A stretch of 62,219 bases of DNA, taken from assembly GCA_030431755.1 (NCBI GenBank), contig JAUIIK010000010.1, positions 1-62,219 on the forward strand, in the 5' to 3' direction. Of this stretch, positions 48,027 to 62,219 are shown piece after piece (the first letter of the stretch is position 1; the number at the start of each line of letters is the position of its first letter). This stretch comes from Chloroflexia bacterium (lineage in GTDB: Bacteria > Chloroflexota > Chloroflexia > Thermomicrobiales > CFX8). Below the pieces are notes generated by a model. It was not told the DNA's origin. It saw nothing but the letters and a program-made list of their open reading frames with translations, and did no database searches. A program made the translations under genes and the position numbers.

Positions 48027-51000
48027 TTATCGCTTGTCCAGCAGCGACCCAACCCGGGTCAGGCCAGCGTAGGCGACGTGGTTGCCGAGTTTGACGTCGT
48101 CGTGGTGGGCGCAGTCCTCGGCGTCGCCGGCGATGAGCTCCTCGGCGAGGGTTTCGGCCTTGATGTAGTCGGCGTGGGCCTTGATCGCCTCGGCTTCCTC
48201 GCCGGTTGCGCTGTAGACGAGCTTGATCGTGTCCTCGATCTGCAAACCGGCCTGCTTGCGGAGGTCCTGGACGCCGCGGACGAAGTCGCGGGCCATGCCC
48301 TCCAGCACCAGCTCGTGGGTCAGGGTCGTGTCGAGTGCGGCCAGGACATCGCCATCCTCGGCGACGTTGAAGCCCTCACGCTCGGCGACGTCGACGAGCA
48401 CTTCCTCGTCGGTCAGCTCGATGTCGCTGCCGTTCAGGGCGACACTCACCGTCTCCCCGGCACGGAATGCGCCGGCGACGGAGGCCGGATCGAGCTGCAT
48501 GATCGCGCCACGCAAGGCGTTCATCTGCTTGCCGTACTTCGGGCCGAGGACAGCGAAGTTGGGCTTCACCTGGTACTCGGCGTACTCGGCCGGGTCGTCG
48601 ATCCAGTCGATGCGCTTGACGTTCAATTCGTCGAGCAGCTGCTCCTGGAGCGAATCGACGCCCTGCCGGACCTCGCCGTTGCGGGCCCAGATGTAGAGCG
48701 TCGCGAGCGGCTGGCGGACCTTGACGTTGGCTTTGTTGCGGGCCGCGCGGCCGAGGTTCGTGACGCGCAGCAGCGCCGCCATGTCGCGGTCGAGGTCGGC
48801 GTCGACTCTGCTCGCGTCAACCTCCGGATAGGCGGTCAGGTGGATCGAACGCGGCGCGTCCTGCTCTACTGCGACGACGAGATTTTGGTACATCTCCTCG
48901 GTTGTGAAGGGGATGAAGGGCGCCATCAGCTTGGACAACTCGACCAGCACCTCGTAGAGGGTCTGGTAGGCGGCGGCCTTATCGCGGTCGGCTTCGGTCT
49001 TCCAGAAGCGCCGGCGGTTGCGGCGGATGTACCAGTTCGACAGCTCTTCGATGGCGAAGTTCTCGATGGCACGGGTCGCCCGGACGGGATCGTAGTCGTC
49101 GAGGCCGGCGCGGACCTCGGAGATGGCGTGCTGGAGCCGCGAGACGATCCAGCAGTCGAGCAGGGTGCGCTCGGCCAGCGGGACCTGGTTCTCGGGCAGC
49201 GTCGGATCGAAGCCGTCGAGGGCTGCATAGTTGACGAAGAAGGCGTAGGAGTTCCAGATCGGGATGATGACCTGCCGCCGGACCTCGTCGCCGAGGCCGT
49301 AGCCGAAGTTCAGATTGACCGTCGGGTTGTGCCGGCAGTAGAGCCAGCGCATGACGTCGGAACCCATGCGGTCTGCGGCCTCGTCGTAGGGGATCGAGTT
49401 GCCGGCGCTCTTGTGCATCTCCCGGCCATGCTCGTCGCGTAGCAGGGCGAAGCCGAGGCAGGTCTCGTAGGGCGCTTCATCGGCCATGACGACGCTCTGA
49501 GCCAGCATCGAGTAGAACCAGTTGCGGAACTGGCCGGGGAAGGACTCGGTGATGAAGTCGGCCGGAAACCACTCGCGCCACTTGTCGCGATCCTCGGTGT
49601 AGTACATCGTGCTGAAGGGCACTGCACCAGCGTCGAGCCACGGATTGCCGACATCCTTGATGCGGCTGACCTCGGCGTCGCACTCCGAGCAGCGGAGCTT
49701 GACAGCATCGACCCACGGGCGGTGCGGTGAGTTCCCCTCGAACTCGTCCCAGCCGCTGACGGCGCGCTCGCGCAGCTCTTCCTTCGATCCGATGACCTCG
49801 AAGCTGCCGCATTCCTTGCACTCGTAAATGGGAAGGGCCAGGCCCCAGTAGCGCTTCTTGGAGATCATCCAGTCATCCATGTTGCGCAGCCAGTCCAGCT
49901 CGCGATCGAGGCCGAACTCGGGAATCCAGCGGACATCCCGGGCGATCTCCTGGAGCCGCTCGCGGAGCGGGTCCATCGCGATGTACCACTCGTCGACGAC
50001 GCGGAAGACGACATCGGTCTTGCAGCGCCAGCAGGTCGCGTAACGGTGGGTGTAGTCGTGATCGTAGAGCAGTAGCCCGCGCTCGCGGAGATCGTCGATG
50101 ACCGGTCCCGCGACGTCGTGGGCGTACATGCCGGTGAGGAAGCCGAAGCCATCGTAGAAGTGGCCGAGCTCGCCGATCGGCGCGATGACCTGGAGGTCGT
50201 GCTCCTTCGACAGGCCGTAGTCCTCGCGTCCACAGCCCGGCGCGATGTGGACGATACCGCTACCCTCGTCGGCCGCGACATCGTCCCAGGCGATAACGCG
50301 GTGCCGCACTTCGCTATTGGCTGGCAGGTGGTCGTAGAGGCCAGTGTAGCTCCGTCCGACGAGATCGGACCCTTTGACCTTATCGAGTTCGGTGTAGTCG
50401 CCGCGGAGTGCGTGCTGCATCGCTTCCTCGGCCAGGTAGAAGATCTCGCCGCCCTGCTCGACCTTGACGTAGGTCAGCTCCGGGTGGACGGCCGCGGCGA
50501 CGTTGGCCGGCAGCGTCCAGGGGGTCGTCGTCCAGACAAGCAACGAGGCGTCTTCGTCATCCAGCTTCAGCAGGGCGTAGAGCGAGCGGTGGGTGCGCTC
50601 GGTGTAGCCCTCGCCGATCTCCATCTCCGAGAGGCCGGTGCCGCAACGCGGGCACCAGGGCATCGAATCATCGCCTTTATAGAGGAGGCCGCGCTCTTTG
50701 CACTGCTTCAGGAAATTCCAGATCGTGTAGTTATTGACATCGGACATCGTGTAGTAGGAGTTGTCCCAGTCCATGAAGCTTCCGAGCCGCTTCGTCTGCT
50801 CCGTCTGGACCATCGCGTACTTGCGGACGCGCTCCTTGCACTTCTCGACGAACTTCGCGATGCCGTACTCCTCGATGTCCCGTTTTGAGGTGAAGCCCAG
50901 CTCGCGCTCGACCTCGACCTCGACCCAGAGCCCCTGGCAATCGAAGCCGTTTTGGTAGCGCTGCCGGTGACCGAGCATCGTGTTGTAGCGCACCCAGAGA

Positions 51001-51224
51001 TCCTTGTAGGTACGCCCCCAGGCATGATGGACGCCCATCGGGTTGTTGGCGGTGATCGGGCCATCGAGGAAGGACCAGTTGGTCGGGCTGTCATCGTTCT
51101 TTGAGAGATATTCCTCGACAACGCCATCGCCGTACCACCAGTACAGCCGATCCCGTTCCATGGCCGGGAAATCGACCCTGGTTTCGACGGAGTTGAAGCC
51201 CTTTTTGGCTGGTGCTGATGTCAT
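48027..51224 (-). CDS. ileS: Isoleucine--tRNA ligase
   Basis: 1065 residues, long-type class I synthetase. The HIGH-equivalent signature sits in 'GPITANNPMGVHHAWGRTYKD' (about 57-77). The CP1 editing domain follows (for example 'LLVWTTTPWTLPANVAAAVHPE'). The KMSKS loop is degenerate: 'GREMHKSAGNSIPYDEAADRMGSDVMRWLY', with the second Lys-Ser retained. A C-terminal anticodon-binding region starts near 680 and a tRNA-binding tail after 900. Zn-finger-type pairs are visible (CWRCKTD, ECKECGS, RCSECDAE). Its identity as Ile-specific is supported by the T-box leader, whose specifier codon reads AUC. GGGAG precedes ATG 51224. It attaches isoleucine to tRNA in the cytoplasm. Confidence 0.95.
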   Translation of the reverse strand: MTSAPAKKGFNSVETRVDFPAMERDRLYWWYGDGVVEEYLSKNDDSPTNWSFLDGPITANNPMGVHHAWGRTYKDLWVRYNTMLGHRQRYQNGFDCQGLWVEVEVERELGFTSKRDIEEYGIAKFVEKCKERVRKYAMVQTEQTKRLGSFMDWDNSYYTMSDVNNYTIWNFLKQCKERGLLYKGDDSMPWCPRCGTGLSEMEIGEGYTERTHRSLYALLKLDDEDASLLVWTTTPWTLPANVAAAVHPELTYVKVEQGGEIFYLAEEAMQHALRGDYTELDKVKGSDLVGRSYTGLYDHLPANSEVRHRVIAWDDVAADEGSGIVHIAPGCGREDYGLSKEHDLQVIAPIGELGHFYDGFGFLTGMYAHDVAGPVIDDLRERGLLLYDHDYTHRYATCWRCKTDVVFRVVDEWYIAMDPLRERLQEIARDVRWIPEFGLDRELDWLRNMDDWMISKKRYWGLALPIYECKECGSFEVIGSKEELRERAVSGWDEFEGNSPHRPWVDAVKLRCSECDAEVSRIKDVGNPWLDAGAVPFSTMYYTEDRDKWREWFPADFITESFPGQFRNWFYSMLAQSVVMADEAPYETCLGFALLRDEHGREMHKSAGNSIPYDEAADRMGSDVMRWLYCRHNPTVNLNFGYGLGDEVRRQVIIPIWNSYAFFVNYAALDGFDPTLPENQVPLAERTLLDCWIVSRLQHAISEVRAGLDDYDPVRATRAIENFAIEELSNWYIRRNRRRFWKTEADRDKAAAYQTLYEVLVELSKLMAPFIPFTTEEMYQNLVVAVEQDAPRSIHLTAYPEVDASRVDADLDRDMAALLRVTNLGRAARNKANVKVRQPLATLYIWARNGEVRQGVDSLQEQLLDELNVKRIDWIDDPAEYAEYQVKPNFAVLGPKYGKQMNALRGAIMQLDPASVAGAFRAGETVSVALNGSDIELTDEEVLVDVAEREGFNVAEDGDVLAALDTTLTHELVLEGMARDFVRGVQDLRKQAGLQIEDTIKLVYSATGEEAEAIKAHADYIKAETLAEELIAGDAEDCAHHDDVKLGNHVAYAGLTRVGSLLDKR

Positions 51225-51243
51225 GCTGCGTGCTCCCTATTGA

Positions 51244-51393
51244 GTTTGTCGGTTGTCGTACGTCGTTTGTAGGAAAGCCCGTCTTTGTTCTGCTCCCCTC
51301 TCCCCGCGTAGTGCAACGGAGCAGTGGGAGAGGGGCTGGGGGTGAGGGAGATTCCCCGGTTTTCCTTCAAACGACCTACGACAACCGACAAAC
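51244..51393. repeat. 150-bp palindrome between T-box and ileS (family F)
   Basis: Arms 51244-51276 and 51361-51393 are complementary at 31 of 33 positions. Inside, a GGGAGAGGGGCTGGGGGTGA/CTCCCCTCTCCCC stretch pairs with itself. The outer arm (TTGTCGTACGTCGTTTGTAG) resembles the outer arm at 28233 (TTGTAGTACGTAGTTTGTAG). It lies in the ileS leader, 3' of the attenuator. Confidence 0.85.
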
Positions 51394-51410
51394 TGACTCT
51401 TTCTTAAACA

Positions 51411-51735
51411 AAAAGACCCATCCTCGAAATCGAGGACGGGCGTCACCCGCGGTACCACCTCGGTTGCCCGTGCAGCGCAGGCACGAGCCACTCGTTCCGG
51501 CGCTGCTCGACACTGCGAGCGCTACCGGCGCCGTTGGTAACGGGCGGCGAACCCGGCCACGTCTACTTGGGTTGTGTTGCGTGCAACCCGTTCGGGTGGC
51601 GGCTCGGGAATGATCTTCGGCCGGTCGCGTACCGTCCGGCTCTCACTGCCCCGGACTCGCTAGGGGCCTCGGCCCCGGCCTACTCGTTTCCGTCAACGCC
51701 TCAACCTGCCTCTCGGCAACTTCCAGTATAGCACC
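51411..51735 (-). ncRNA. T-box riboswitch leader (isoleucine, specifier AUC)
   Basis: Read on the minus strand from about 51735: the AGTA element (GAAACGAGTAGG), a distal stem-I motif (GCAGTGAGAGCCGGAC), and the specifier loop GAAGAUCAUUCCCGAGCC with AUC at 51612-51614. A variable region follows. The T-box sequence AGGTGGTACCGCG (51448-51460) pairs with the acceptor end of tRNA. The terminator hairpin 51415-51443 (CCCGTCCTCG / CGAGGATGGG) ends in UUUUU (51411-51415). Uncharged tRNA-Ile would favour the antiterminator and turn on ileS. A TATACT at 51725-51730 (minus strand) may be its -10. Confidence 0.93.
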
Positions 51736-52064
51736 GGCTCCTAGATCGTCTCTGCCCAGATAGTCACGAACGCAGTGCACAAGGGGCATGAAACCCGTAG
51801 AGAGCTTGGCTGGAGCAGAGAGCGAGTTTGCCAGTTGACAGACTGAGCCGAGGAGGGCGTTCTTCGGGCTCCCGAATTCTCGACAAGCGCTCCGTTGCGC
51901 TTGTTCTTTCGTCAAGGTGCGGACCACTTCGCATCCAGTTCCTGCGAGTACTTTCTCTTGCGGGTGTTGGCGCTCGCAGAGCTCTCGTTGGGTCTCCATC
52001 ACGCTAAATCTGCCATTGGTCAGCAGGCCCATTGATATACTCCGGGCGAATGTGGAGGTGACAA
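51736..52064. other. Intergenic region between T-box promoter and the TA pair
   Basis: 329 bases with no coding sequence I trust. A frame across it (51643-52122 minus) overlaps the T-box and has no family features. The plus side ends with GATATACT and GGAGGTGAC before the ATG at 52065, which may be the pair's promoter and ribosome binding site. Confidence 0.45.
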
Positions 52065-52328
52065 ATGTCTGAGCAGCCCTCGGCTTCTGACGCCGGTCTT
52101 CTGCTTGATGACGACCAGCCACTTATCGGGCTAATGCTTGAAGAAAACGGCCACGATGTCGTGCGCTACTTCGTTGACGACGATGCCGCCGATGCTGCGC
52201 TGTCGGATGACGTCACGGAGTGTGCGCTCAAGGCAATTGGCTCATTCGGAGATGTTGATTGGGAGGCAATGGTCGAAGCTTTGGATCGTATTCGCCATGA
52301 GACCCCTCCAACTCCGCCAATTGAGTGA
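52065..52328 (+). CDS. Putative antitoxin, acidic small protein
   Basis: 87 residues, rich in Asp/Glu ('YFVDDDAADAALSDDVTECALKAIGSFGDVDWEAMVEALDRIRHE'). It ends at a TGATG overlap with the PIN-domain gene, so the two are translationally coupled. GGAGGTG before ATG 52065 is a good ribosome binding site. No AbrB, RHH or Phd motif is obvious, so it would be a less common antitoxin type. The call rests on the operon with a PIN toxin. Confidence 0.6.
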   Translation: MSEQPSASDAGLLLDDDQPLIGLMLEENGHDVVRYFVDDDAADAALSDDVTECALKAIGSFGDVDWEAMVEALDRIRHETPPTPPIE

Positions 52329-52774
52329 TGCGAGAATATCTAGTTGATACCGGCCCGCTTGCAGCGCTTCTCCATGACAGAACGCAGGTGGTTGAGCTGA
52401 TTACGCCGTGGATGATCGCGCACAAGGCAGCGACGAGCGCACTCGTGTATGCCGAGATTGTCGAATACATTCGGCCACGCGCGGAGCTTGATGCGTATCA
52501 CCGGTCCTTGCGCTCGATACTGCGTGAAATTCATCCCTACTTCCCAACATATTCGATATTGCGGCGCTACGCTGATATCCGGCTGCGACTTCGACCTCCA
52601 CACGGTCCTGGACTCGTCGGCGATATCGATACGCTGATTGCAGCAACTGCGTTGGAGCGCAATCTTTCTGTGGTTACACTCGACCGTGATTTCCTGCGTG
52701 TGCCGAGATTGGGAGTGATACTGCTGGATCGTTCGACATTTGCTATTGCCGAGCAGCGCACCGCTCCTTCCTGA
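52328..52774 (+). CDS. PIN-domain ribonuclease, VapC-like toxin
   Basis: About 148 residues from ATG 52328, one base overlapping the antitoxin stop (TGATG). PIN residues: Asp7 (LVDTGPLAALL), Glu in 'TSALVYAEIVEY' (about 44), Asp in 'GDIDTLIAATALERNLSVVTLDRDFLRV' (about 96-100 and 116). These four acidic residues bind Mg/Mn for RNA cleavage. VapC toxins cut tRNA or rRNA when the antitoxin is lost. The longer frame from GTG 52325 is less likely. Confidence 0.85.
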   Translation: MREYLVDTGPLAALLHDRTQVVELITPWMIAHKAATSALVYAEIVEYIRPRAELDAYHRSLRSILREIHPYFPTYSILRRYADIRLRLRPPHGPGLVGDIDTLIAATALERNLSVVTLDRDFLRVPRLGVILLDRSTFAIAEQRTAPS

Positions 52775-52790
52775 CTAGTACCGCCGTAAC

Positions 52791-54053
52791 GTGCCAGATC
52801 GATTCGCCGACCGTCATTTCCGGGGCTTGTGGCGCAACGGGAATTTTCTGAGGCTGTGGGCCGGGGAGACGATCTCGGTCTTCGGGACGCAGATCAGCGT
52901 CGTGGCGATTCCGCTGCTCGCGGTCCTGACCTTTGAGGCGTCGCCAGCGGAGATGGGGCTGCTGGCTGCGTCGAGCGAATTGCCGGCGTTGTTTCTGGCG
53001 CTCTTTGTCGGGGTCTGGGTCGACCGCCTGCGCCGCCGTCCGGTGATGATCGCCGCCAATATCGGCAGGGCGTTGCTTCTCTTTCTGATTCCCCTGGCTG
53101 TCTGGCTGGGCTGGTTGAACATCCGGATGCTCTATGTCATCTCGTTCCTGGCCGGGACGCTGACCGTCTTCTTTGCCGTCGGCTACCAGTCCTATCTGCC
53201 GACGATCGTCCGGCGGGATCAACTCGTCGAGGGCAACAGCAAGCTGGCCATGAGCGGGTCCGGCGCGCTCATCATCGGCCCGGCGCTGGCCGGTGCGATT
53301 GTCCAGCTGGCCTCGGCTGCGCTCGCGATTCTGATCGATGCGATCTCCTACCTCGTCTCGGCGCTCTTCCTCTGGCGAATCGACGCGCCGGAGAGCGCGG
53401 CGGCGGCGCGGGATGCCAGGAAAGGGATCTGGCAGGAGATCGGCGAGGGCCTGCGGACAGTACGCGATGAGCCGATTCTGAGGACGCTCGGCATCAGCAC
53501 CGGCATCGCCGTCCTCTTCGAGAACATCCAGTTCGTCGCAGTCGTGCTCTACATCACCCGCGATCTGGGCCTGAGCGCCGGGACATTTGGCCTTATCTTC
53601 GCCTCGGGTGGCATTGGCTATCTCGTTGGGGCGCTGCTTGCCAGCCGTATCTCGGCCCGGATCGGTCTGGGCCGGGCCATCGTCGGCGGACTGGCGCTCT
53701 CATCAGTGAGCAATGTGCTTGTACCGTTGGCGAGCGGCTCGGCGGTCTTTTCGGTCGGTGTGTTGCTGGTGGCGTTTGCGACCGGCGCTGCCGGCGGTAC
53801 GGTCTACGATCTGAATCAAGTCAGTCTCCGGCAGGCCGTCACGCCGGACCGCTTGCTCGGGCGCGTGGCCGGGAGCTTGCGGGTCGTCATCCGCGGGGCC
53901 GCGCCGGTCGGGGCCTTGATCGGCGGATTTCTGGGCGAGTGGGTTGGACTGCGCGGGGCGCTCGTCGTTGCCGCGGCTGGTTTCCCCCTGGCCGTCGCCG
54001 TGGTCTGGTTCTCGCCGGTGCGCTTGCTGGACGCGCCGCCGCCGGCGAGCTGA
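52791..54053 (+). CDS. MFS exporter (MFS_3/EntS-like)
   Basis: 420 residues from GTG 52791; no good ribosome binding site is visible. Twelve helices: 'FLRLWAGETISVFGTQISVVAIPLLAVLTF' (helix 1 with the QIS motif of this group), 'GVWVDRLRRRPVMIAANIGRALLL' (motif A), 'DLGLSAGTFGLIFASGGIGYLVGALLASRIS'. The last residues are 'WFSPVRLLDAPPPAS'. Related to macrolide and siderophore exporters and to the tandem trio at 18-22 kb, but divergent in sequence. Substrate unknown. It is 16 bases after the PIN gene, probably co-transcribed by proximity rather than function. Confidence 0.88.
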   Translation: MPDRFADRHFRGLWRNGNFLRLWAGETISVFGTQISVVAIPLLAVLTFEASPAEMGLLAASSELPALFLALFVGVWVDRLRRRPVMIAANIGRALLLFLIPLAVWLGWLNIRMLYVISFLAGTLTVFFAVGYQSYLPTIVRRDQLVEGNSKLAMSGSGALIIGPALAGAIVQLASAALAILIDAISYLVSALFLWRIDAPESAAAARDARKGIWQEIGEGLRTVRDEPILRTLGISTGIAVLFENIQFVAVVLYITRDLGLSAGTFGLIFASGGIGYLVGALLASRISARIGLGRAIVGGLALSSVSNVLVPLASGSAVFSVGVLLVAFATGAAGGTVYDLNQVSLRQAVTPDRLLGRVAGSLRVVIRGAAPVGALIGGFLGEWVGLRGALVVAAAGFPLAVAVVWFSPVRLLDAPPPAS

Positions 54054-54127
54054 CCGGCTCCAGCGAGTCTCCGGTCGCCGTCGCCTCGACCAGCGGTATT
54101 GAGCGCTATGTATCGGGCCCAGGGGAG

Positions 54128-56764
54128 CTACCAGTAAGTGATGCTGGTTTCTGCTCCGGACGCTGTCCCGAATGCGCCAGCCGCTCCCACTGAGATCGCG
54201 ATGTCGAGTTCGAGGTCCTCCGGGCAGTGGCAGCCCTGATTTCCGGTGCAGGTGCAGCCTGGCGGGCAGCACCAGTCGTCGGGGCAGCAGACTGGGTAGA
54301 TCGACGGGCAACAGGAGGAATCACCGCAGCAGACCGGGAAGCCGCTTGAGCAGCAGTAGTCGTAATCGTTGCAGCAGTGCGGGTAGTCGCCGCCACAGCA
54401 GAGCCCGCCGCCGCAATCGATCAGCTCCGGGCAGCAGACGCCATCGGGCACACAGGTGCCATTGGCGCAGCAGGTACCGCTGCACTGCCGGCAGCGGCCG
54501 TCATCGTTGCAGACTTCGCAAGCCCCACAGTCGCCATCGCTGACGCACTCGAGGCACAGCCCGTCGATGCAGTCCGTGCCCGCCGGGCATTCGATCCCGC
54601 ATGCGCCGCAGTGGTCGTCGTTCGAGAGGATATCGACGCACATATCCTCGCAGCAGACCTCGTCAGCCTGACATGCGTCACACGGGCCTGGCTGTTGGCA
54701 GACACCGTTGACGCAGTTCTCGTTGTCGTTGCAGACGACGCCACAGCCGCCGCAATTCTGGTCGTCGTCCAGCGGGTCGAGGCAGACGCCGTCGCAACAG
54801 ATCTGGCCGGCAAAGCAGTCGAGGCCACAACCACCGCAGTTCTGGACGTCGTTGAGCAGGTCCAGGCAGACGCCATCGCAGCAATAGTTGCTGAGATCGT
54901 TGCCGGGACATGCTTCGCAGGGGTCGGCCGGTGCGTAGCAAACGCCGTTGACGCAATCGTGCCCATCCGGGCAAGCGGCGCCGCATGCCCCGCAGTTGGC
55001 GTTGTCGGAGAGGATGTCGATGCATGTCCCGCCACAGCATGTCTGGCCAGGGGCGCAACGCGCGCCACAGCTACCGCAATTGTTGGCGTCGGTGTTGAGG
55101 TTCGTGCAGCCGCCCTGACAGCAGAAATTCGATGTATCGGTACCCGAACAGGTGGTGCAATCGGGGCAAACGGGGCGACAGCGATCTTCACAGTCTGCGA
55201 CGGTTGCCTGTTTTAGGCAGACGCTGGTGATGAGATCAACGCAGACGACGACATCCGGCGCTTGGTTACCGTCCGTAGCGGAGCCTCCAGCGTCCGGGCT
55301 GGTTGACTCGCAGAAAACGTGTGCAAGCTCAGTACACGATCCAGTTGCCTCCAGGAATGCTTCAAAGTATGCGTACGGTGACGCGAGGCACTCGTTGACG
55401 CATCTGGCGCATGGATCGCTCCCCTGGAGCTGACTCCCTGATGTGGTTGTGGTGCTACCACCGGATGTGGGGAAATGCGCCTGAACCTGGCCATTCACGT
55501 CGACGTAGAGGACGTAGAGCAGATCATCCAGCGCCGTCACCACCGTGGCATAGGTTGTGGCGACCCCGGACAGGTCCGGGTCGAAGGTGAGGGTCGCTTG
55601 CAATGGGTTGGGCGGTGAAGATTCGTAGGCAACCTGGAGGAAAGAGGTTGGCGTCAGGCCCGTTCCGCTCGCCTGCGTTGCGCTCTGCCCAAGCTGTGAA
55701 AACCCTTGTGCGCTGAGATAGGCCGCAAGCTGCTGATAGTCGGAGTTGCCGCCAGCCGTCTCGGCGAGCTGGGCTTCGACTGCCGGCGGAGCCTTCGTAA
55801 TCGCGGCGTCCTCTTGCGGCGTCGTGCGCCAGGCAAAGTAGTGCTGGCCGACGTTGCCGGCCTCGACCTGCCAGCCGGGCGCATTTGTTGGCGTGTAGGT
55901 CAGGCAACGGCGCTCGAAGCACTGCCAGAGGACATCCTGGGCCGTCCCACCGATGGAGACGCGCGACCAGTAGGCCTCGGTGATCGGCAGGCCGGTCGCG
56001 AAGAACCAGGGGTCGAAGAGCTGTGCCTCGGTCGTCTCACCGTCGATATAGACGGGGCCGCTCTGGTTGGTGAACTCCCAGAAGACCGACGCGACGGTGT
56101 GGTCGATGCCGGGAACGGTGATCTGTTCCGCCGCCGTCACGCCGAATTGCGCGTAGCTGTCGTCCGCGCCGATCGCGCCATCGGCGTAGGTGGTGGTGAT
56201 GGTCGTGCCCGGCACGGTCGCCGGCGCGGTGAGCATCCCGAGCTGTTCGATCTCGGCGTAGGTCGGGCGTTCGCCTGGATCGCCGGCGATGTTGACCTGG
56301 GCTGGTTGACGGGTAATGAAGTCGTCGTTGCCGACTTGCATCTGGCCGGTTATCAGCTCCCAGGCAAGCCGGCCGTTGGTGACGAAGAACGGGTTGGCCG
56401 GATCGAGCTCCGGGTAGGTCAGCTCCATGCGGGATTTGTCGAAGTATTGGACAGTGCGTTGGCCGCCGGGCGATTCGGTGTAGTCCTCGGTGAGCGCTTC
56501 GGTAAAGGCTTCCGGCCCCCACATCCAGGTGCGGTTGGCCGCGCCCGATGCGACCGGTTGGTCGGTCCGGGCCCAGGTGCGCTGGAAGGCTTCATTGGCG
56601 GGCGCAACGCTTGGTGCGCGTTCTTCCGCCGTTGTCGTGTCTTCGCGGCCAAAGCGTGACAGGAGACCGCCAGCGGCTAATCCGAGCGCGCCCTTGAGCA
56701 GGCCACGTCGGGAAGAACGCGCGCTGATCAGTTTTGAAAGTTCGTCAAAGCGATGCTCGCGCAT
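54128..56764 (-). CDS. Tat-exported cysteine-rich protein with LGFP-like N-terminal domain
   Basis: About 878 residues from ATG 56764 (GGAAG 8 bases upstream). Tat signal: SSRRGLLKGALGLAAGGLLSR, Arg19-Arg20. Residues about 70-340 resemble extracellular LGFP/peptidoglycan-associated repeats ('DKSRMELTYPE...NPFFVTNGRLAWELITGQMQVG', 'TGLPITEAYWSRVSIGG', 'QHYFAWRT'). After a beta-rich linker, residues about 440-850 are Cys-rich, with MXAN_6577-like modules such as 'NNCGSCGARCAPGQTCCGGTC' and 'CCDGVCLDPLDDDQNCGGCG'. I count roughly 80 Cys in this half, mostly in CC or CxxC. The last 30 residues are Cys-free (DIAISVGAAGAFGTASGAETSITYW). It is divergent from the MauE-thioredoxin gene at 56994. Likely cell-wall or extracellular. 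Confidence 0.85.
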   Translation of the reverse strand: MREHRFDELSKLISARSSRRGLLKGALGLAAGGLLSRFGREDTTTAEERAPSVAPANEAFQRTWARTDQPVASGAANRTWMWGPEAFTEALTEDYTESPGGQRTVQYFDKSRMELTYPELDPANPFFVTNGRLAWELITGQMQVGNDDFITRQPAQVNIAGDPGERPTYAEIEQLGMLTAPATVPGTTITTTYADGAIGADDSYAQFGVTAAEQITVPGIDHTVASVFWEFTNQSGPVYIDGETTEAQLFDPWFFATGLPITEAYWSRVSIGGTAQDVLWQCFERRCLTYTPTNAPGWQVEAGNVGQHYFAWRTTPQEDAAITKAPPAVEAQLAETAGGNSDYQQLAAYLSAQGFSQLGQSATQASGTGLTPTSFLQVAYESSPPNPLQATLTFDPDLSGVATTYATVVTALDDLLYVLYVDVNGQVQAHFPTSGGSTTTTSGSQLQGSDPCARCVNECLASPYAYFEAFLEATGSCTELAHVFCESTSPDAGGSATDGNQAPDVVVCVDLITSVCLKQATVADCEDRCRPVCPDCTTCSGTDTSNFCCQGGCTNLNTDANNCGSCGARCAPGQTCCGGTCIDILSDNANCGACGAACPDGHDCVNGVCYAPADPCEACPGNDLSNYCCDGVCLDLLNDVQNCGGCGLDCFAGQICCDGVCLDPLDDDQNCGGCGVVCNDNENCVNGVCQQPGPCDACQADEVCCEDMCVDILSNDDHCGACGIECPAGTDCIDGLCLECVSDGDCGACEVCNDDGRCRQCSGTCCANGTCVPDGVCCPELIDCGGGLCCGGDYPHCCNDYDYCCSSGFPVCCGDSSCCPSIYPVCCPDDWCCPPGCTCTGNQGCHCPEDLELDIAISVGAAGAFGTASGAETSITYW

Positions 56765-56947
56765 GCCCGTAGCTTCCATCGCCGGCCCGACGTGCTAACT
56801 CCTCGTGAATGCCTAACATATAGTCAGTATTCTATTGCCGCCAAGTGCCGTAGGCTCACTCTAGACCGCCTGAAAATGCGCGTCAAGCGCTGCGCCCAAC
56901 GGTGCTAGGATGGTCGCGAGCAACTGGTCGCAACACACCGTCAACGC

Positions 56948-56978
56948 CTAGGGCGAGGCGCGTTTCGCCGCCTCGCAG
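56948..56978 (+). promoter_or_regulatory. Leader hairpin before the MauE-thioredoxin gene
   Basis: GGGCGAGGCG pairs with CGCCGCCTCG (about 8 pairs plus extension) immediately before the ribosome binding site GGAGGGA (56981-56987). A stem this close could modulate translation. The rest of the 56780-56947 divergent region is AT-richer near the minus-strand gene; no further motif stands out. Confidence 0.4.
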
Positions 56979-56993
56979 GCCGGAGGGACGTGA

Positions 56994-59015
56994 ATGGATC
57001 TCGCACTACTCCTGGCACGGCTCATACTTGCGGGCGTCTTTGCCGTTGCCGGGATCGCCAAGCTCATGGACCGTGACGGCGCGCGCGCCGCCCTGACGGG
57101 GTTCGGCGTGCCGGAGCGCCTGGCGCGGCCGTTGGCGGTTAGCTTGCCAGTCGTCGAACTGGGTGTCGCGCTGGCGCTCCTGCCGCTCGTGACAGCCTTT
57201 TGGGGGGCCATCGGCGCGCTCGTTTTGCTTGGCCTCTTCGTCATCGGGATTGCGCTCAGTATGGCGCGCGGCGAAGCGCCGGACTGCCACTGCTTCGGCC
57301 AGCTCCACTCCGAACCGGCCGGCTGGCGCACACTCATCCGCAACGCGGCGCTCGCGCTCGTGACGCTCTTCGTCCTGGTGGCGGGTGGCGCGCGACCCGG
57401 CTCGAGCTTGACTGGCTGGCTCGGGGATCTGAGCGGCGCAGAGCAGTTCGGGTTGGTCTTCGCAGCCGTATTGGCGTTCGCCGTGAGCGCCCAAGCCTGG
57501 TTCCTCTTCCAGCTGATGGCCCAGAATGGACGCTTGTTGTCGCGGGTTGAGGCGCTTGAGTCCGCAGCGTTGGCGGGCGGCGACCAGCAAGCTGGTCCAG
57601 CGCTGCCGAAACTCCCGGATATCGGGTTGCCCATCGGCGCGCCTGCGCCCGCGTTCAGCCTGGCCGGTCTCTATGGCGAAACGACGACGCTCGAGGCCCT
57701 GCTTGCGCCGGGTAAACCGAGCCTGCTGCTCTTTACTGATCCCAATTGCGCGCCCTGTAACGCGCTCCTGCCCGAAGTCGCCCGCTGGCAGCGAGAACAC
57801 CGTGACGACATGACCGTCGCAATCATCAGCCGCCGCGAGCTGGAGGCGAATCGCTCCAAAGCCGAGGAGCATGGTCTCCGGAACGTGCTAGTGCAGCAAG
57901 ACATGGAGGTGTACGGAGCATTCCAGGCGCGCGGGACACCTTCGGCGGTCTTCGTGCGGCCGGATGGGATAGTGGCCAGCCCGGTTGCCGGTGGCGCGCG
58001 CCAGATCGAGCGGCTGGTCGAGGCCGTGCTGGCCGGTGCGTTGGAGCCTGCGCCCACGCAGCACGGCGGCGCAAGCGCGACGAACGGGCATGGCGAGCCG
58101 CCCGGCTTGGCCTCGGCCCGGAGGCCGGCCCCGGCAGCGACCCTGACCGCCCGGCCGCCCGGCGGGCAAGCCCTGCCGGACATCGCGCTGCCGGACGCCG
58201 ATGGCAATGAGGTGCGACTGTCCGCGTTTCAGGGCCGTCCGACCGTCCTGCTCTTCTGGAACCCCGGCTGTGGTTTCTGCCAGCGCATGGTTGGCGAACT
58301 CGAAACCTGGGCGCGGGAGCGGCCGCCGGACGCGCCGGGGCTGGCGATCATCTCCAGTGGCGGCGTCGATGGCGGGCCAGTGAGCCGTCTGGGAGCTCCC
58401 TATCTGCTTGACGACGGCTTCGCGGCCGGGCGGCAGTTCGGGGCGAGCGGGACGCCCTCCGCCGTGCTGATCGATAGCGCCGGCAAGCTCGCCTCGAACG
58501 TCATGGTCGGCGCTGACAAGGTGCTGAGCTTGCTCGACCCCGCGCGCCGGATGGCCCAGGCGAACGGCAATGGCAACGGGAACGGCACACTGCCGCCGCT
58601 TGCTCCGATGGTTCGACTCGGCTCGCCGGTTCCAGCATTCCGAGTGCCCGATCTCGATGGCAACATGGTCGATGCATCGGCGTTGAGCGGTCAGACGACG
58701 CTGGTCCTCTTCTGGGATCCCAACTGCGGCTTCTGCCAGCGCATGGCCGACGACCTGCGGGCGCTTGAGGCAGACGCCGCCGCGCCGCCGCTCTTTGTGA
58801 TCTCGACCGGCACGCCAGATGTCAACCGGGCGCTCGGTCTGAAGTCGACGATCGTGCTCGATGAAGGGTTCACGCTCGGCCGCAGCTTCAGCGCGAGCGG
58901 CACGCCGTCGGCAATGCTCGTGGACCGTAAGGGCCGCGTCGCGTCAGCGATTGCCGCCGGCGCGCCAGCCATCCTCGATCTGGCGCGCGAAGCGCGGCGC
59001 GGATCGAATGCCTAA
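56994..59015 (+). CDS. MauE membrane domain fused to three thioredoxin-like (TlpA/MauD-type) domains
   Basis: 673 residues from ATG 56994 (GGAGGGA upstream). Residues 1-175: MauE/DoxX-like membrane domain with about five helices and a CHCFG motif (Cys98, Cys100). Then three redoxin domains: domain 1, about 205-345, active site NCAPC (Cys252, Cys255); domain 2, about 392-515, GCGFC (Cys426, Cys429); domain 3, about 538-670, NCGFC (Cys578, Cys581). Each has a cis-Pro loop GTPSA (about 314, 486, 658). MauE and MauD assemble disulfides in methylamine dehydrogenase; fusions with one redoxin domain are known, but three in tandem are unusual. The domains probably face outward. Its divergent neighbour is a protein with about 80 Cys, a likely client. 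Confidence 0.93.
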   Translation: MDLALLLARLILAGVFAVAGIAKLMDRDGARAALTGFGVPERLARPLAVSLPVVELGVALALLPLVTAFWGAIGALVLLGLFVIGIALSMARGEAPDCHCFGQLHSEPAGWRTLIRNAALALVTLFVLVAGGARPGSSLTGWLGDLSGAEQFGLVFAAVLAFAVSAQAWFLFQLMAQNGRLLSRVEALESAALAGGDQQAGPALPKLPDIGLPIGAPAPAFSLAGLYGETTTLEALLAPGKPSLLLFTDPNCAPCNALLPEVARWQREHRDDMTVAIISRRELEANRSKAEEHGLRNVLVQQDMEVYGAFQARGTPSAVFVRPDGIVASPVAGGARQIERLVEAVLAGALEPAPTQHGGASATNGHGEPPGLASARRPAPAATLTARPPGGQALPDIALPDADGNEVRLSAFQGRPTVLLFWNPGCGFCQRMVGELETWARERPPDAPGLAIISSGGVDGGPVSRLGAPYLLDDGFAAGRQFGASGTPSAVLIDSAGKLASNVMVGADKVLSLLDPARRMAQANGNGNGNGTLPPLAPMVRLGSPVPAFRVPDLDGNMVDASALSGQTTLVLFWDPNCGFCQRMADDLRALEADAAAPPLFVISTGTPDVNRALGLKSTIVLDEGFTLGRSFSASGTPSAMLVDRKGRVASAIAAGAPAILDLAREARRGSNA

Positions 59016-59169
59016 GCTCCCGCGACGATGCCGGCCGGCTTGAACCGCCAGCGCCAACAACACACTGAATATCGCTGTGCCACTTTGAGCGCAGGAATCC
59101 GATAGCCAGCCACCGCCTCCAGACATAGCCTGAGCTGACGATTCGTGTTGCGCCAGGAGGTACAGATTC

Positions 59170-60132
59170 GTGACGGTTCCGCATCATCCATTTCGTTTCG
59201 GTGTGATCAATGAGACGCTGGCTGCGGCGGAACGCTGGCAACATCATGTCAGGCGTGTCGAAGCGCTCGGCTATGCCACTTTCCTGATCCGCGATCACAT
59301 CCTGCCGGATTTCTTTGGCTCGCAGCTTGCTCCACTGACTGCGCTTGCGACCGCGGCGGCGGTGACCGAGCGGCTGCATGTCGGCACGCTGGTCTTTTCG
59401 AACGACTTCCGCCACCCGGCCTTCCTGGCCAAGGAGGCTGCGACACTGGACGCGCTCTCCGGCGGCCGCTTCGAGCTCGGCATCGGGGCCGGCTGGCTCC
59501 GGTCCGAGTACGAGGCTGCCGGATTGACGCTCGACAGCGCCGGCACACGCATCGACCGGCTGGAAGAGTCCTTGCAGATTCTGCGCGGCCTGCTCGGTGG
59601 CGAGCCTGTCGATTTTGACGGCTGCCACTATGCCATCGATGGCATTGAGAACTACCCGCCGCCTGTCCGCCCTGGTGGTCCGCCGCTGCTCATCGGCGGC
59701 GGCAAGCCGAAGATGCTCAGACTGGCAGGCCGGTATGCCGACACGGTCAGTATCCTGACGACTTCAGTCGCCAGTGGTGTGGTTGACCCAGCCCCCGGCG
59801 AGCGCCTGCCGGAGGAAGTCGAACGCAAGCTGGGCTGGATCCGGGAAGGGGCCGGTGAGCGTTACCCGGAGATCGAGCTGAGCCTGATCCCAACGTTGAT
59901 GGTGACTGAGGACCGACTTGGCGCGGCGGCGGAGCTAATTGCCGAGCGTGACTGGGCAGACTTGACGCCGGAGGCCGTGCTTTCGATGCCCTCAGTGCTG
60001 ATCGGAACCTACGACCAGATCTGCGCGACGCTGGTCGAACGCCGCCAGCGCTACGGCTTCTCCTACTACATCTTCTCCGATGCGCTTGTCGACATCGCCG
60101 CGCCAGTGGTCAGCGCGCTTGCCGGGAGTTAG
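59170..60132 (+). CDS. F420-dependent LLM class oxidoreductase (TIGR03621-like)
   Basis: 320 residues from GTG 59170 (AGGAGG upstream). Luciferase-like TIM barrel: 'FRFGVINETLAAAERWQHHVRRVEALGYATFLIRDHILPDFF' (residues 8-49), 'VFSNDFRHPAFLAKEAATLDALSGGRFELGIGAGW' and 'PPLLIGGGKPKMLRLAGRYADTVSI'. 'NDFRHP...LAKE...LD.LS.GR' matches TIGR03621. Reduced F420 would be the hydride donor; the substrate is unknown. It is a distant paralogue of the TIGR03560-like gene at 26404. Monocistronic or with the GNAT gene 125 bases downstream. Confidence 0.9.
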   Translation: MTVPHHPFRFGVINETLAAAERWQHHVRRVEALGYATFLIRDHILPDFFGSQLAPLTALATAAAVTERLHVGTLVFSNDFRHPAFLAKEAATLDALSGGRFELGIGAGWLRSEYEAAGLTLDSAGTRIDRLEESLQILRGLLGGEPVDFDGCHYAIDGIENYPPPVRPGGPPLLIGGGKPKMLRLAGRYADTVSILTTSVASGVVDPAPGERLPEEVERKLGWIREGAGERYPEIELSLIPTLMVTEDRLGAAAELIAERDWADLTPEAVLSMPSVLIGTYDQICATLVERRQRYGFSYYIFSDALVDIAAPVVSALAGS

Positions 60133-60256
60133 CTACGCTGTTGCAGTTGCCAGGGCAAATAAAATAATGTCTGCGGACAAGCTCGTGCTAAAATCGCTCT
60201 CGCTATAGATGTGCGCAGGAAGCGAGGGCAAGATGCCGGGCTGGGAGGGAGGCGCG

Positions 60257-60736
60257 ATGCAGATACGCGCCTTCGTGGAAGCGGATCGCGCGGCGCTGGT
60301 AGCGCTTGCGCCGAGACTGACGATCGGGATGCCGGCCTGGCGGGACGCCGCCGGTTGTCTTGCGGCCGTCCACGGCTGGGTGGCGGCGGCGATGGAACGC
60401 GACGCGGCCGACGGCGCGCTCCTGGTCGCGGCGGGCGCTGATGGGCAGGTAGCCGGGTTCATTAGTATCGAGCGCGCGACACATTTCAGCGGCGAGCGGG
60501 AGGCCTGTGTCGGTGAACTGGTCGTCGATGTGCGCTACGAGGGCCGCGGTGTTGGCCGGGAGCTGGTGCAAGCGGCTGAGCGCTGGGCTGTCGCTGAAGG
60601 CTACCGAACGCTGACGCTCATCACCGGCGCGGACAACGGCAATGCGCGCCGTTTCTACGACCGCCTCGGCTTCCAGGAGGAAGAAGTCCGGCTGACGAAG
60701 ATGCTATCGATAGCCGACGACGGTTTGGGCGGATGA
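60257..60736 (+). CDS. GNAT family N-acetyltransferase
   Basis: About 159 residues from ATG 60257 (GGGAGGGA 7 bases upstream; the longer frame from 60209 is not needed). Motif A: 'ELVVDVRYEGRGVGRELVQAAERWAVAEGYRTLTLIT' with the R-G-V-G pyrophosphate loop. C-terminal 'NGNARRFYDRLGFQEEEVRLTKML' is the standard final beta-alpha-beta. The N-terminal 'IRAFVEADRAALVAL' fits. Acceptor unknown. Confidence 0.93.
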   Translation: MQIRAFVEADRAALVALAPRLTIGMPAWRDAAGCLAAVHGWVAAAMERDAADGALLVAAGADGQVAGFISIERATHFSGEREACVGELVVDVRYEGRGVGRELVQAAERWAVAEGYRTLTLITGADNGNARRFYDRLGFQEEEVRLTKMLSIADDGLGG

Positions 60737-60816
60737 CCCGGTGATGAGATCCGCATGCGGCGGTTACACGTTTACCTATCAATGGCAGATGCGATGCACT
60801 GACTGGATTCTCAATC

Positions 60817-62219
60817 TTGCGGTACTGGAAATCTCTAGTCTTACTGCTACTCACCGTGCCGCTCCTGGCTACTAGCCAAGTCGACGCGCAACAGACCGTC
60901 ACTGAACCGACCGAAGCGACGCTCATCGGAACCTCGCCCTATCTTGGAGGCGGGCTAACGACTGATGGCCGTTGGGTTGTCTACAGTGGGAGCGCCGACC
61001 TCAACGGTCGAGATTTCGACGTGTTCGGGATCGATCTGGCGACCGGTGAAGAGTTCGATATTGCGACGGGACCTGGTTCACAGAGTTCGCCCAATGTCGA
61101 TGGCGATTACGTCGTCTGGTACGTGCTCACCGACGAGCGTCAGGCGATCGATGCAATGTATCTCCCGACCCGCGAAGTATTCACCGTTTCCGCGGCACAG
61201 TACGGCAACTACGATCCAAAGATATCCGGTGACTGGGTCATCTGGCAACACTACTCGGACGATAGGGTTAAATCACTATTGGCCCGGAACATGCGAACGA
61301 TGGAGCCCGTCCAGCAAATACATACGTTTCCAGGAGGGGACAACGAACCATCGCGCATATTCACACGGCTTGATGATGGCCGAGTTCTGCTCTACGAGGT
61401 CTACGATTTCTTGTTGGATCCCAACACCTGGGTTGACGACTGGCGTATGTCCATTTTCGATCTTACTACTGGAGGATCACGCGCGGTCGTAGCGGGGCAA
61501 GCGCTGTACGACTATTTGGTGGATGACAATGGCCATGAGGCGTCCCTGATTGTCCGAGAAGGAACTGTCCCGCCAAATGGCTTTGCGTTCGCAGACTCGA
61601 CGCTTGTCTATCAGGAGTGGCGTATTGATGGTGATCTGACGCTTATTGCTCAGGACGTCGACACAGGTGAACGCCGCGAGATAGCTTGGTACCCGACCCC
61701 GTTCGACCAATATGATGAGTTTGGATCACCCGTGCCTGGGATCTATATGGATCGATGGAATGCGCTTGCCACTGACGGCCGGCTCGTCTTCTGGGTTGAG
61801 CATGAGGTTCGCGATTTTGGCTACCCGTCGACGATTCAGGGTTTCGATCTTGAGTCCGGGGTCCAGATGGCCGTTGTCCAAGAGCGCGAGGCTATGTACT
61901 GGCCAGATTCATTCTTCATCATGGAGGCATCGAACGAGATGCTCGTCTGGGCCTATCACGGTGAACTTGCACCCAGATATTCAGATATTGCGGTCGAACT
62001 CCACGCCGCCCAAATCGCTGACCTTGTTCCAGAGCATGTGAATCCCGCGTTGCCGGTGCCTCCACGGGTCGATGCGCCGACCCTGCGGTACTTTGCGGAA
62101 ACCGGCCACATACTGCGGCATCGTTTCCTGGAATTCTGGGAACTCAACGGCGGTTTGCCGGTGTTCGGTTTCCCGCTTACCGAGAAATTCTGGGAGGCTT
62201 CGGACGCGTCTGACACACG
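60817..62219 (+). CDS. Secreted beta-propeller-like protein, 3' partial
   Basis: The frame starts at TTG 60817 (signal peptide MRYWKSLVLLLLTVPLLATSQVDA) and is open to the end of the window, so at least 467 residues are seen and the stop is missing. The body consists of repeated blade-like units: 'TTDGRWVVYSGSADLNGRDFDVFGIDLATGEEF', 'SPNVDGDYVVWYVLTDERQAIDAMYL', 'SGDWVIWQHYSDDRVKSLLARNM', 'TDGRLVFWVEHEVRDFGYPSTIQGFDLESG', a TolB/WD40-like pattern. Near the end, 'TGHILRHRFLEFWELNGGLPVFGFPLTEKFWE' is the LGFP-like module also seen in the Cys-rich protein at 54128. No good ribosome binding site before the TTG. Extracellular. Confidence 0.8.
   Translation, partial: MRYWKSLVLLLLTVPLLATSQVDAQQTVTEPTEATLIGTSPYLGGGLTTDGRWVVYSGSADLNGRDFDVFGIDLATGEEFDIATGPGSQSSPNVDGDYVVWYVLTDERQAIDAMYLPTREVFTVSAAQYGNYDPKISGDWVIWQHYSDDRVKSLLARNMRTMEPVQQIHTFPGGDNEPSRIFTRLDDGRVLLYEVYDFLLDPNTWVDDWRMSIFDLTTGGSRAVVAGQALYDYLVDDNGHEASLIVREGTVPPNGFAFADSTLVYQEWRIDGDLTLIAQDVDTGERREIAWYPTPFDQYDEFGSPVPGIYMDRWNALATDGRLVFWVEHEVRDFGYPSTIQGFDLESGVQMAVVQEREAMYWPDSFFIMEASNEMLVWAYHGELAPRYSDIAVELHAAQIADLVPEHVNPALPVPPRVDAPTLRYFAETGHILRHRFLEFWELNGGLPVFGFPLTEKFWEASDASDT

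Follow-up and report, generated by a model that had tools for sequence, protein, structure and literature searches.

A MauE membrane domain fused to three thioredoxin-like domains beside a Cys-rich Tat-type protein in a Thermomicrobiales genome: a probable single-chain disulfide machine

Described systems and how the locus compares

MauE has been speculated, in a passage of PMC7794033 that cites van der Palen 1997, to help form the disulfides of the methylamine dehydrogenase small subunit. Here we compare this and related systems with a gene from a Chloroflexia bacterium of the Thermomicrobiales, lying in a stretch of 62,219 nucleotides (the window), which joins a MauE domain and three redoxin domains (T1, T2 and T3) in one chain. 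The mau operons of Paracoccus denitrificans (L265), Indioceanicola and Methylobacterium have the gene order mauB-mauE-mauD-mauA. They combine, as the fusion does, a MauE that carries CxC with an adjacent membrane-anchored redoxin, MauD. MauE and MauD are needed for the small subunit MauA, a Cys-rich exported protein whose leader, FDDM...TSRR, is of the Tat type, and the fusion would serve proteins of a similar kind; unlike the fusion, the mau operons have two separate genes, one redoxin and one client of 12-14 Cys. Matching domains of the fusion and of MauE or MauD from mau operons share 27-39% identity. The three MauE proteins from mau operons have DCGCF where the fusion has CHC, and the MauD motif is CPVC or CPMC.

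In Streptomyces, MauE/MauD homologues occur beside Cys-rich precursors among the RiPP candidates of decRiPPter (PMC7794033), and DoxX and redoxin genes (SviE/SviF) occur in lasso peptide clusters, where deletion of those genes did not abolish the disulfides of sviceucin and MS-271 (PMC9266682). These clusters share with the fusion locus a MauE- or DoxX-type membrane protein and a redoxin beside a small Cys-rich or disulfide-bearing product, but they consist of separate genes, their clients are peptides and no Tat leader has been reported for them. DsbD or CcdA acting with TlpA/ResA/CcmG or DsbC resembles the proposed mode of the fusion in that a membrane electron carrier feeds redoxins of the TlpA/ResA fold, and DsbD also has the single-chain design; the membrane domain is DsbD_TM in these systems, whereas that of the fusion is MauE. 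In VKOR-thioredoxin fusions, a quinone-linked membrane protein is joined to a redoxin and is a partner of exported proteins. The joining of a membrane protein to a redoxin is common to these proteins and the MauE fusion, yet VKOR and MauE are different Pfam families. A Pfam scan of the fusion at E 0.01 gave no match to DsbD_TM (PF02683) or to VKOR (PF07884). The open literature that we searched held no description of a MauE fused to several redoxins, and a first-pass annotation of this DNA likewise knew of no account of a MauE joined to three.

The fusion gene and its Cys-rich neighbour

The fusion gene and a divergent gene for a Cys-rich protein share one intergenic region (Table 1). The fusion ORF is preceded by an RBS-like GGAGGG (56982-56987) and has orthologues of 44-54% identity. 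It passed the gathering score of PF07291 (MauE; 94.9 bits vs a cut-off of 27), and the AhpC-TSA/Redoxin models of Pfam matched three stretches (113.7 and 92.8 bits). The protein has eight Cys in total, those of CHC and of three CxxC motifs (CAPC at residue 252, CGFC at 426 and CGFC at 578), and GTPSA loops at residues 314, 486 and 636. Pfam and the motif positions thereby confirm the first-pass description of a MauE domain followed by three thioredoxin-like domains, to which we add a fifth membrane helix ahead of the redoxins.

Table 1. Features of the fusion gene, its neighbour and the region between them (window positions)
Feature	Position	Strand	Basis
MauE-Trx-Trx-Trx fusion gene, 673 aa	56994..59015	+	ORF, Pfam/NCBIfam matches, orthologues
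MauE membrane domain, residues 1-129, TM helices 1-4	56994..57380	+	PF07291 match; AF2 model
CHC motif of MauE, residues 98-100, loop TM3/TM4	57285..57293	+	Homologue alignment
TM5, residues 148 to about 175	57435..57518	+	Hydropathy; AF2 helices
Redoxin domain T1, residues 213-343, CAPC at 57747-57758; MauD-like, putative relay type	57630..58022	+	Own HMM; TIGR02661 best stretch
Redoxin domain T2, residues 390-514, CGFC at 58269-58280	58161..58535	+	Pfam, own HMM
Redoxin domain T3, residues 541-665, CGFC at 58725-58736; T2 duplicate	58614..58988	+	Within-protein identity
Divergent intergenic region common to both genes	56765..56993	.	ORF positions
Tat-type Cys-rich protein, 883 aa, 84 Cys	54128..56779	-	ORF, Pfam
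Leader MREHRFDELSKLISARSSRRGLLKGALGLAAGGLL...	56645..56764	-	SRRGLLK twin-arginine motif; FDxL...SRR in linked clients of several phyla
Uncharacterised domain, residues ~55-322	55814..56617	-	About 50 paralogous matches in genome
Cys-rich region with Stig1 repeats, residues 454-852, 82 Cys	54224..55420	-	PF04885

Four residues of the MauE domain, C98, C100, R116 and N117, were invariant among 28 aligned homologues. TM5 makes the number of helices between the CHC loop and the redoxins even, and the count of membrane helices therefore predicts that both share one side of the membrane. In the AF2 model, the MauE domain had a pLDDT of 89.8, and the whole chain a pTM of 0.39; the arrangement of the domains was therefore kept out of the argument. 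A Foldseek search with the predicted MauE domain (window 56994-57566) returned no match at E 0.001. With VIA-align, this domain aligned to the human receptor assembly factor NACHO/TMEM35A (Z 13.5, rmsd 2.1, 115 residues), a score that exceeds those of the next rows yet lies within the range of helical bundles, and that we regard as a lead only. The predicted domain could have a DoxX-superfamily fold. Against VKOR chains, its structural Z was about 6, the background level for helical bundles.

With a thioredoxin fold, three CxxC motifs and three GTP loops, the fusion redoxins are of the TlpA/ResA type, and their fold is that of ResA/CcmG (AF2 model vs ResA, Z 18.5, rmsd 2.1 over 131 residues). 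The MauD equivalog model TIGR02661 scored 93.6 bits on the fusion, below its cut-off of 188.6, with the best stretch in T1. The AhpC-TSA and Redoxin matches would also suit peroxide or thiol peroxidase modules that do not act on proteins. We find this scarcely credible, since CxxC is present in all three domains, which align best with ResA/CcmG-type oxidoreductases, are fused to MauE and resemble MauD.

Of the 84 Cys of the neighbour, 82 fall in the last 431 residues, close to the roughly 80 in 440 residues first counted. The Stig1 model PF04885 matched two stretches and passed its cut-off (82.5 bits vs 24.1), and C_rich_MXAN6577 (NF041328), with 70.9 bits, stayed under its cut-off of 100. Translation likely starts at the second ATG, at 56764 (MREHRFDEL), which is preferred because it aligns with homologous leaders (MEDRKFDDL, MDVRRFDEL). 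From this start the two genes are separated by about 230 bp, as first reported, and from the longest ORF by 214 bp. Export by Tat is likely, judging from SRRGLLK at residues 23-29; curated TAT models were silent on the neighbour, and TIGR01409 fires on a related client in locus L180. The first-pass annotation was right about the Cys-rich part of the neighbour; we add that the domain at residues ~55-322 belongs to a large paralogous family (about 50 copies). It had no Pfam match, and shows the motif FERRCLTYTPxNxxGWQVEAGNVGQHYYAWRY.

The host genome (5.1 Mb, 97% complete) contains no MauE match other than the fusion, and no Cys-rich ORF other than the neighbour lies in the 561 kb sampled, window included, which amount to 11% of that genome. 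The Pfam scan recognised neither mauA nor mauB among the eight genes at window 48030-62217, and no methylamine dehydrogenase gene was recognised next to the fusion. The genome also carries a VKOR gene and CcdA/DsbD-type genes, separate from the fusion, which shows that a general disulfide system coexists with it, a point against the reading proposed below.

Linkage of MauE-redoxin fusions to Cys-rich genes

Triple-redoxin homologues with 44-54% identity are common in Thermomicrobiales. Forms with two redoxins were seen in Chloroflexota, Actinobacteriota, Acidobacteriota and deltaproteobacterial MAGs, one-redoxin forms also exist, and a four-redoxin MauE fusion (CGPC, CGFC, CGFC, CGFC) was seen at L061:7959-10481. 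The family is a real and widespread, apparently undescribed, fused variant of MauE/MauD. We surveyed the neighbours of 82 non-redundant MauE-redoxin loci, which had been retrieved by the fusion only and not by their neighbours. In 21 of them, a Cys-rich gene of the exported type lay at most 0.9 kb from the fusion. These comprised the window, L178 and L180 in the same family as the host, L171 and L187 in other Thermomicrobiales, L075 (Anaerolineae), L083, L084 and L233 in other Chloroflexota, two copies in L230 and one in L232 of genome G253, L081, L092, L236, L238 and L241 in Actinobacteriota, L079, L245 and L248 in Acidobacteriota, and L089 in Deltaproteobacteria.

Tat-type Cys-rich ORFs numbered 20 near the fusions (139 kb, 15% of the flanks) vs 7 far from them (805 kb), and 3 of these 7 belong to sister copies of the fusion. 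The excess gives a binomial p of 7e-12, a value that ignores kinship and uses a motif set after some of the sequences were known. The linked loci are not phylogenetically independent. On the tree of MauE plus T1, the linkage label required 13 changes, at least four of them forced by well-supported branches, which indicates that it was gained or lost repeatedly. In G253, three paralogous MauE-redoxin-redoxin fusions on one contig each adjoin their own small Cys-rich Tat-type protein. The divergent layout recurs in L178, from a related genus, but the Cys-rich body there is a different one, with only the first 50 residues in common with the window neighbour. The linked client families are unrelated (Stig1, Disintegrin-like, PqqD-fused or without a match), and often only the leader is common to them. 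The paralogous pairs, the swapped client in L178 and the unrelated client families speak for function rather than inherited position.

The fusion might instead serve the cell wall space as a redoxin of general use, unconnected to Cys-rich proteins in particular, in which case its neighbour in the window would be coincidental. This would fit the lack of a Cys-rich neighbour in most triple fusions and in the Acidobacteriota copies described below. We consider it unlikely in view of the linkage enrichment, the three pairs of G253, the exchange of the client in the same slot in L178, and the fact that the only MauE of the host adjoins the only Cys-rich ORF of the sampled sequence.

Among 18 linked clients, 17 had an even number of mature Cys, as did 31 of all 36 clients (p = 6e-6, with boundaries set by hand and repeats and kinship uncorrected). 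Even counts are as expected if nearly all Cys pair, and support that view. The high Cys density and the CxxC modules might also point to metal binding through reduced thiols, which the fusion would keep reduced. Such a role appears very improbable: metal clusters would not be expected to give even counts, secreted proteins rich in disulfides are known to contain Stig1 and Disintegrin-like modules, and the leaders predict export.

The linked clients have leaders of the FDxL...SRR type, and so have the MauA proteins, for example MLGNFRFDDMVEKLSRRVAGQTSRRSVIGKLG, in the form RFDDM...TSRR. A Tat-type client is therefore the normal case for MauE/MauD, and the oxidation of a Tat client is not the unusual twist that the first-pass annotation had taken it for. 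A model built from the leaders of the linked clients found the MauA of Methylobacterium at E = 3e-6 and the other two MauA at about 1e-3, a level where ordinary Tat proteins also score. We rejected the leader as an exclusive tag of Cys-rich clients, because a 2-Cys protein in L203 (771-1358) has the same leader type and two of the three MauA score no higher than ordinary Tat proteins do.

Linkage is rare in the triple form. Twelve of the 14 triple fusions with both flanks read had no linked Cys-rich gene, the exceptions being the window and L178, and the quadruple fusion adjoined none either. The triple form is therefore not dedicated to one adjacent client. The first-pass proposal of a relay dedicated to the neighbour is in this way upheld for the class (21 of 82 loci, unrelated bodies, several phyla) and fails for the word dedicated; homologues of the triple fusion without any Cys-rich neighbour, which the annotation had named as evidence against it, are the majority. 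The genomes of unlinked triple fusions often encode many Cys-rich Tat-type proteins elsewhere, and a machine shared by several clients is consistent with this. The adjacent 84-Cys protein would be the likeliest client of the fusion in the window, perhaps not the sole one.

Most two-redoxin copies of Acidobacteriota are flanked by der and tgt and have no Cys-rich neighbour. Those of L249-L264, between der (engA) and tgt, have T2 motifs such as CPHC or CPFC and apparently form a separate lineage. Thirteen of 14 genomes with Stig1 carry a match to the fusion, but this co-occurrence at genome level was set aside as weak evidence, being largely confined to two families.

Several further loci were observed. 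Proteins that begin with a PqqD-like (peptide-recognition) domain, end in a Cys-rich tail and have an internal signal of the SRR type adjoin MauE-redoxin fusions in three phyla (L233:7072-7773, L241:7238-7828 and L248:8640-9302), and may possibly be a second kind of client. In Actinobacteriota, the product of L236:5909-7861 is of the Tat type and contains 80 Cys and seven stretches that match the Disintegrin model PF00200; a MauE gene adjoins it at the contig end. A Tat-type Stig1-repeat protein with 182 mature Cys was found at L207:361-3033, in a genome whose fusion is unlinked. At 3.5-4 kb from the one-redoxin MauE fusions of L185 and L186, we noted proteins of about 10 Cys whose leader is RFDxxSRxL...RR (L185:6982-7893, L186:6100-6969 and L186:15229-16104); a two-redoxin gene, separate from the fusion, is present at these loci as well.

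Redoxin types, proposed mechanism and significance

The CxxC motifs were compared in 69 MauE fusion proteins with at least two redoxins. In T1, the third position of the motif was P in 66 of 69 domains (CGPC in 43), and in T2 it was F, Y, H or W in 67 of 69 (CGFC in 39, CGYC in 8 and CPHC in 6); third and fourth redoxin domains carry CGFC, CGYC or CGHC. We take the CxPC of T1 to be a thioredoxin/TlpA-like motif type, CGFC and CGYC of T2 and T3 presumably have the DsbC-like dipeptide, and the CPHC of some T2 domains is presumably DsbA-like. Within proteins, T2 and T3 shared a mean identity of 0.58 vs 0.33 for T1 and T2 (19 proteins; 0.45 vs 0.31 in the window protein alone), indicating that T3 was duplicated from T2 and that T1 is a different module. 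Judged by its motifs, the family architecture is a putative relay-type CxPC domain with one to three CGFC/CGYC/CPHC domains of the putative oxidase or isomerase type, and the roles of the redoxins do differ. Of the possibilities first offered for three redoxins in series, the series reading would apply to T1 and T2 and the differing roles agree with the motifs, and T2 with T3 would represent parallel capacity.

These findings suggest that the fusion is probably a single-chain, membrane-anchored, MauE/MauD-like disulfide machine for exported Cys-rich proteins. Its mode of action would be that of MauE and MauD with a further redoxin of the Dsb type added. In the MauE domain, the invariant CxC would exchange electrons with the membrane and pass the redox state to T1, the presumed relay domain, which would in turn serve T2 and T3. 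Outside the cytoplasmic membrane, these two, presumably of the oxidase/isomerase type, would act on Cys-rich proteins that have been exported, with oxidation or isomerisation as the net result, and the Cys of the clients would pair as disulfides, as their even numbers suggest.

A sub-case of this explanation, with the direction fixed, is reductive. MauE would draw electrons from the cytoplasm or membrane, as DsbD or CcdA do, and keep T1 reduced; T1 would keep T2 and T3 reduced as isomerases that mend wrong pairings in many-Cys proteins, and VKOR would perform the net oxidation. The combination of CxPC in T1 with mostly CGFC or CGYC in T2 and T3 agrees with this, on a motif typing from general knowledge, and the VKOR of the host genome could supply the oxidation. 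Yet CPHC is present in some T2 domains of Acidobacteriota, and the fusion is found in some VKOR-negative genomes, for example G006 (96% completeness). We would put the reductive version a little short of an even chance. The presence of VKOR or CcdA was discarded as a clue to electron direction, as it followed no clear pattern among genomes.

Beyond the disulfide machine proposed for the window, we suggest tentatively, and with more doubt than conviction, that bacteria have in the MauE-(redoxin)n fusions one more disulfide system coupled to the membrane, beside DsbB/VKOR and DsbD/CcdA, and that this system is specialised in proteins exported by Tat that contain tens of Cys. Relay and oxidase/isomerase domains would be united in one chain, the extra CGFC copies would provide capacity, the classical MauE/MauD would be a special case, and the FDxL-extended Tat leader would be a shared, non-exclusive mark of clients.

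As far as the passage in PMC7794033 goes, what has been said of the chemistry of MauE is only a speculated help with the disulfides of one enzyme subunit. A natural single-chain version, in which relay and substrate-facing domains are set apart and which is repeatedly paired with a likely client, makes the role of MauE directly testable. If our reading is true, the fusions could become a tool for making disulfide-rich proteins, and they would account for the folding, in several phyla, of exported proteins whose Cys number from 16 to over 100.
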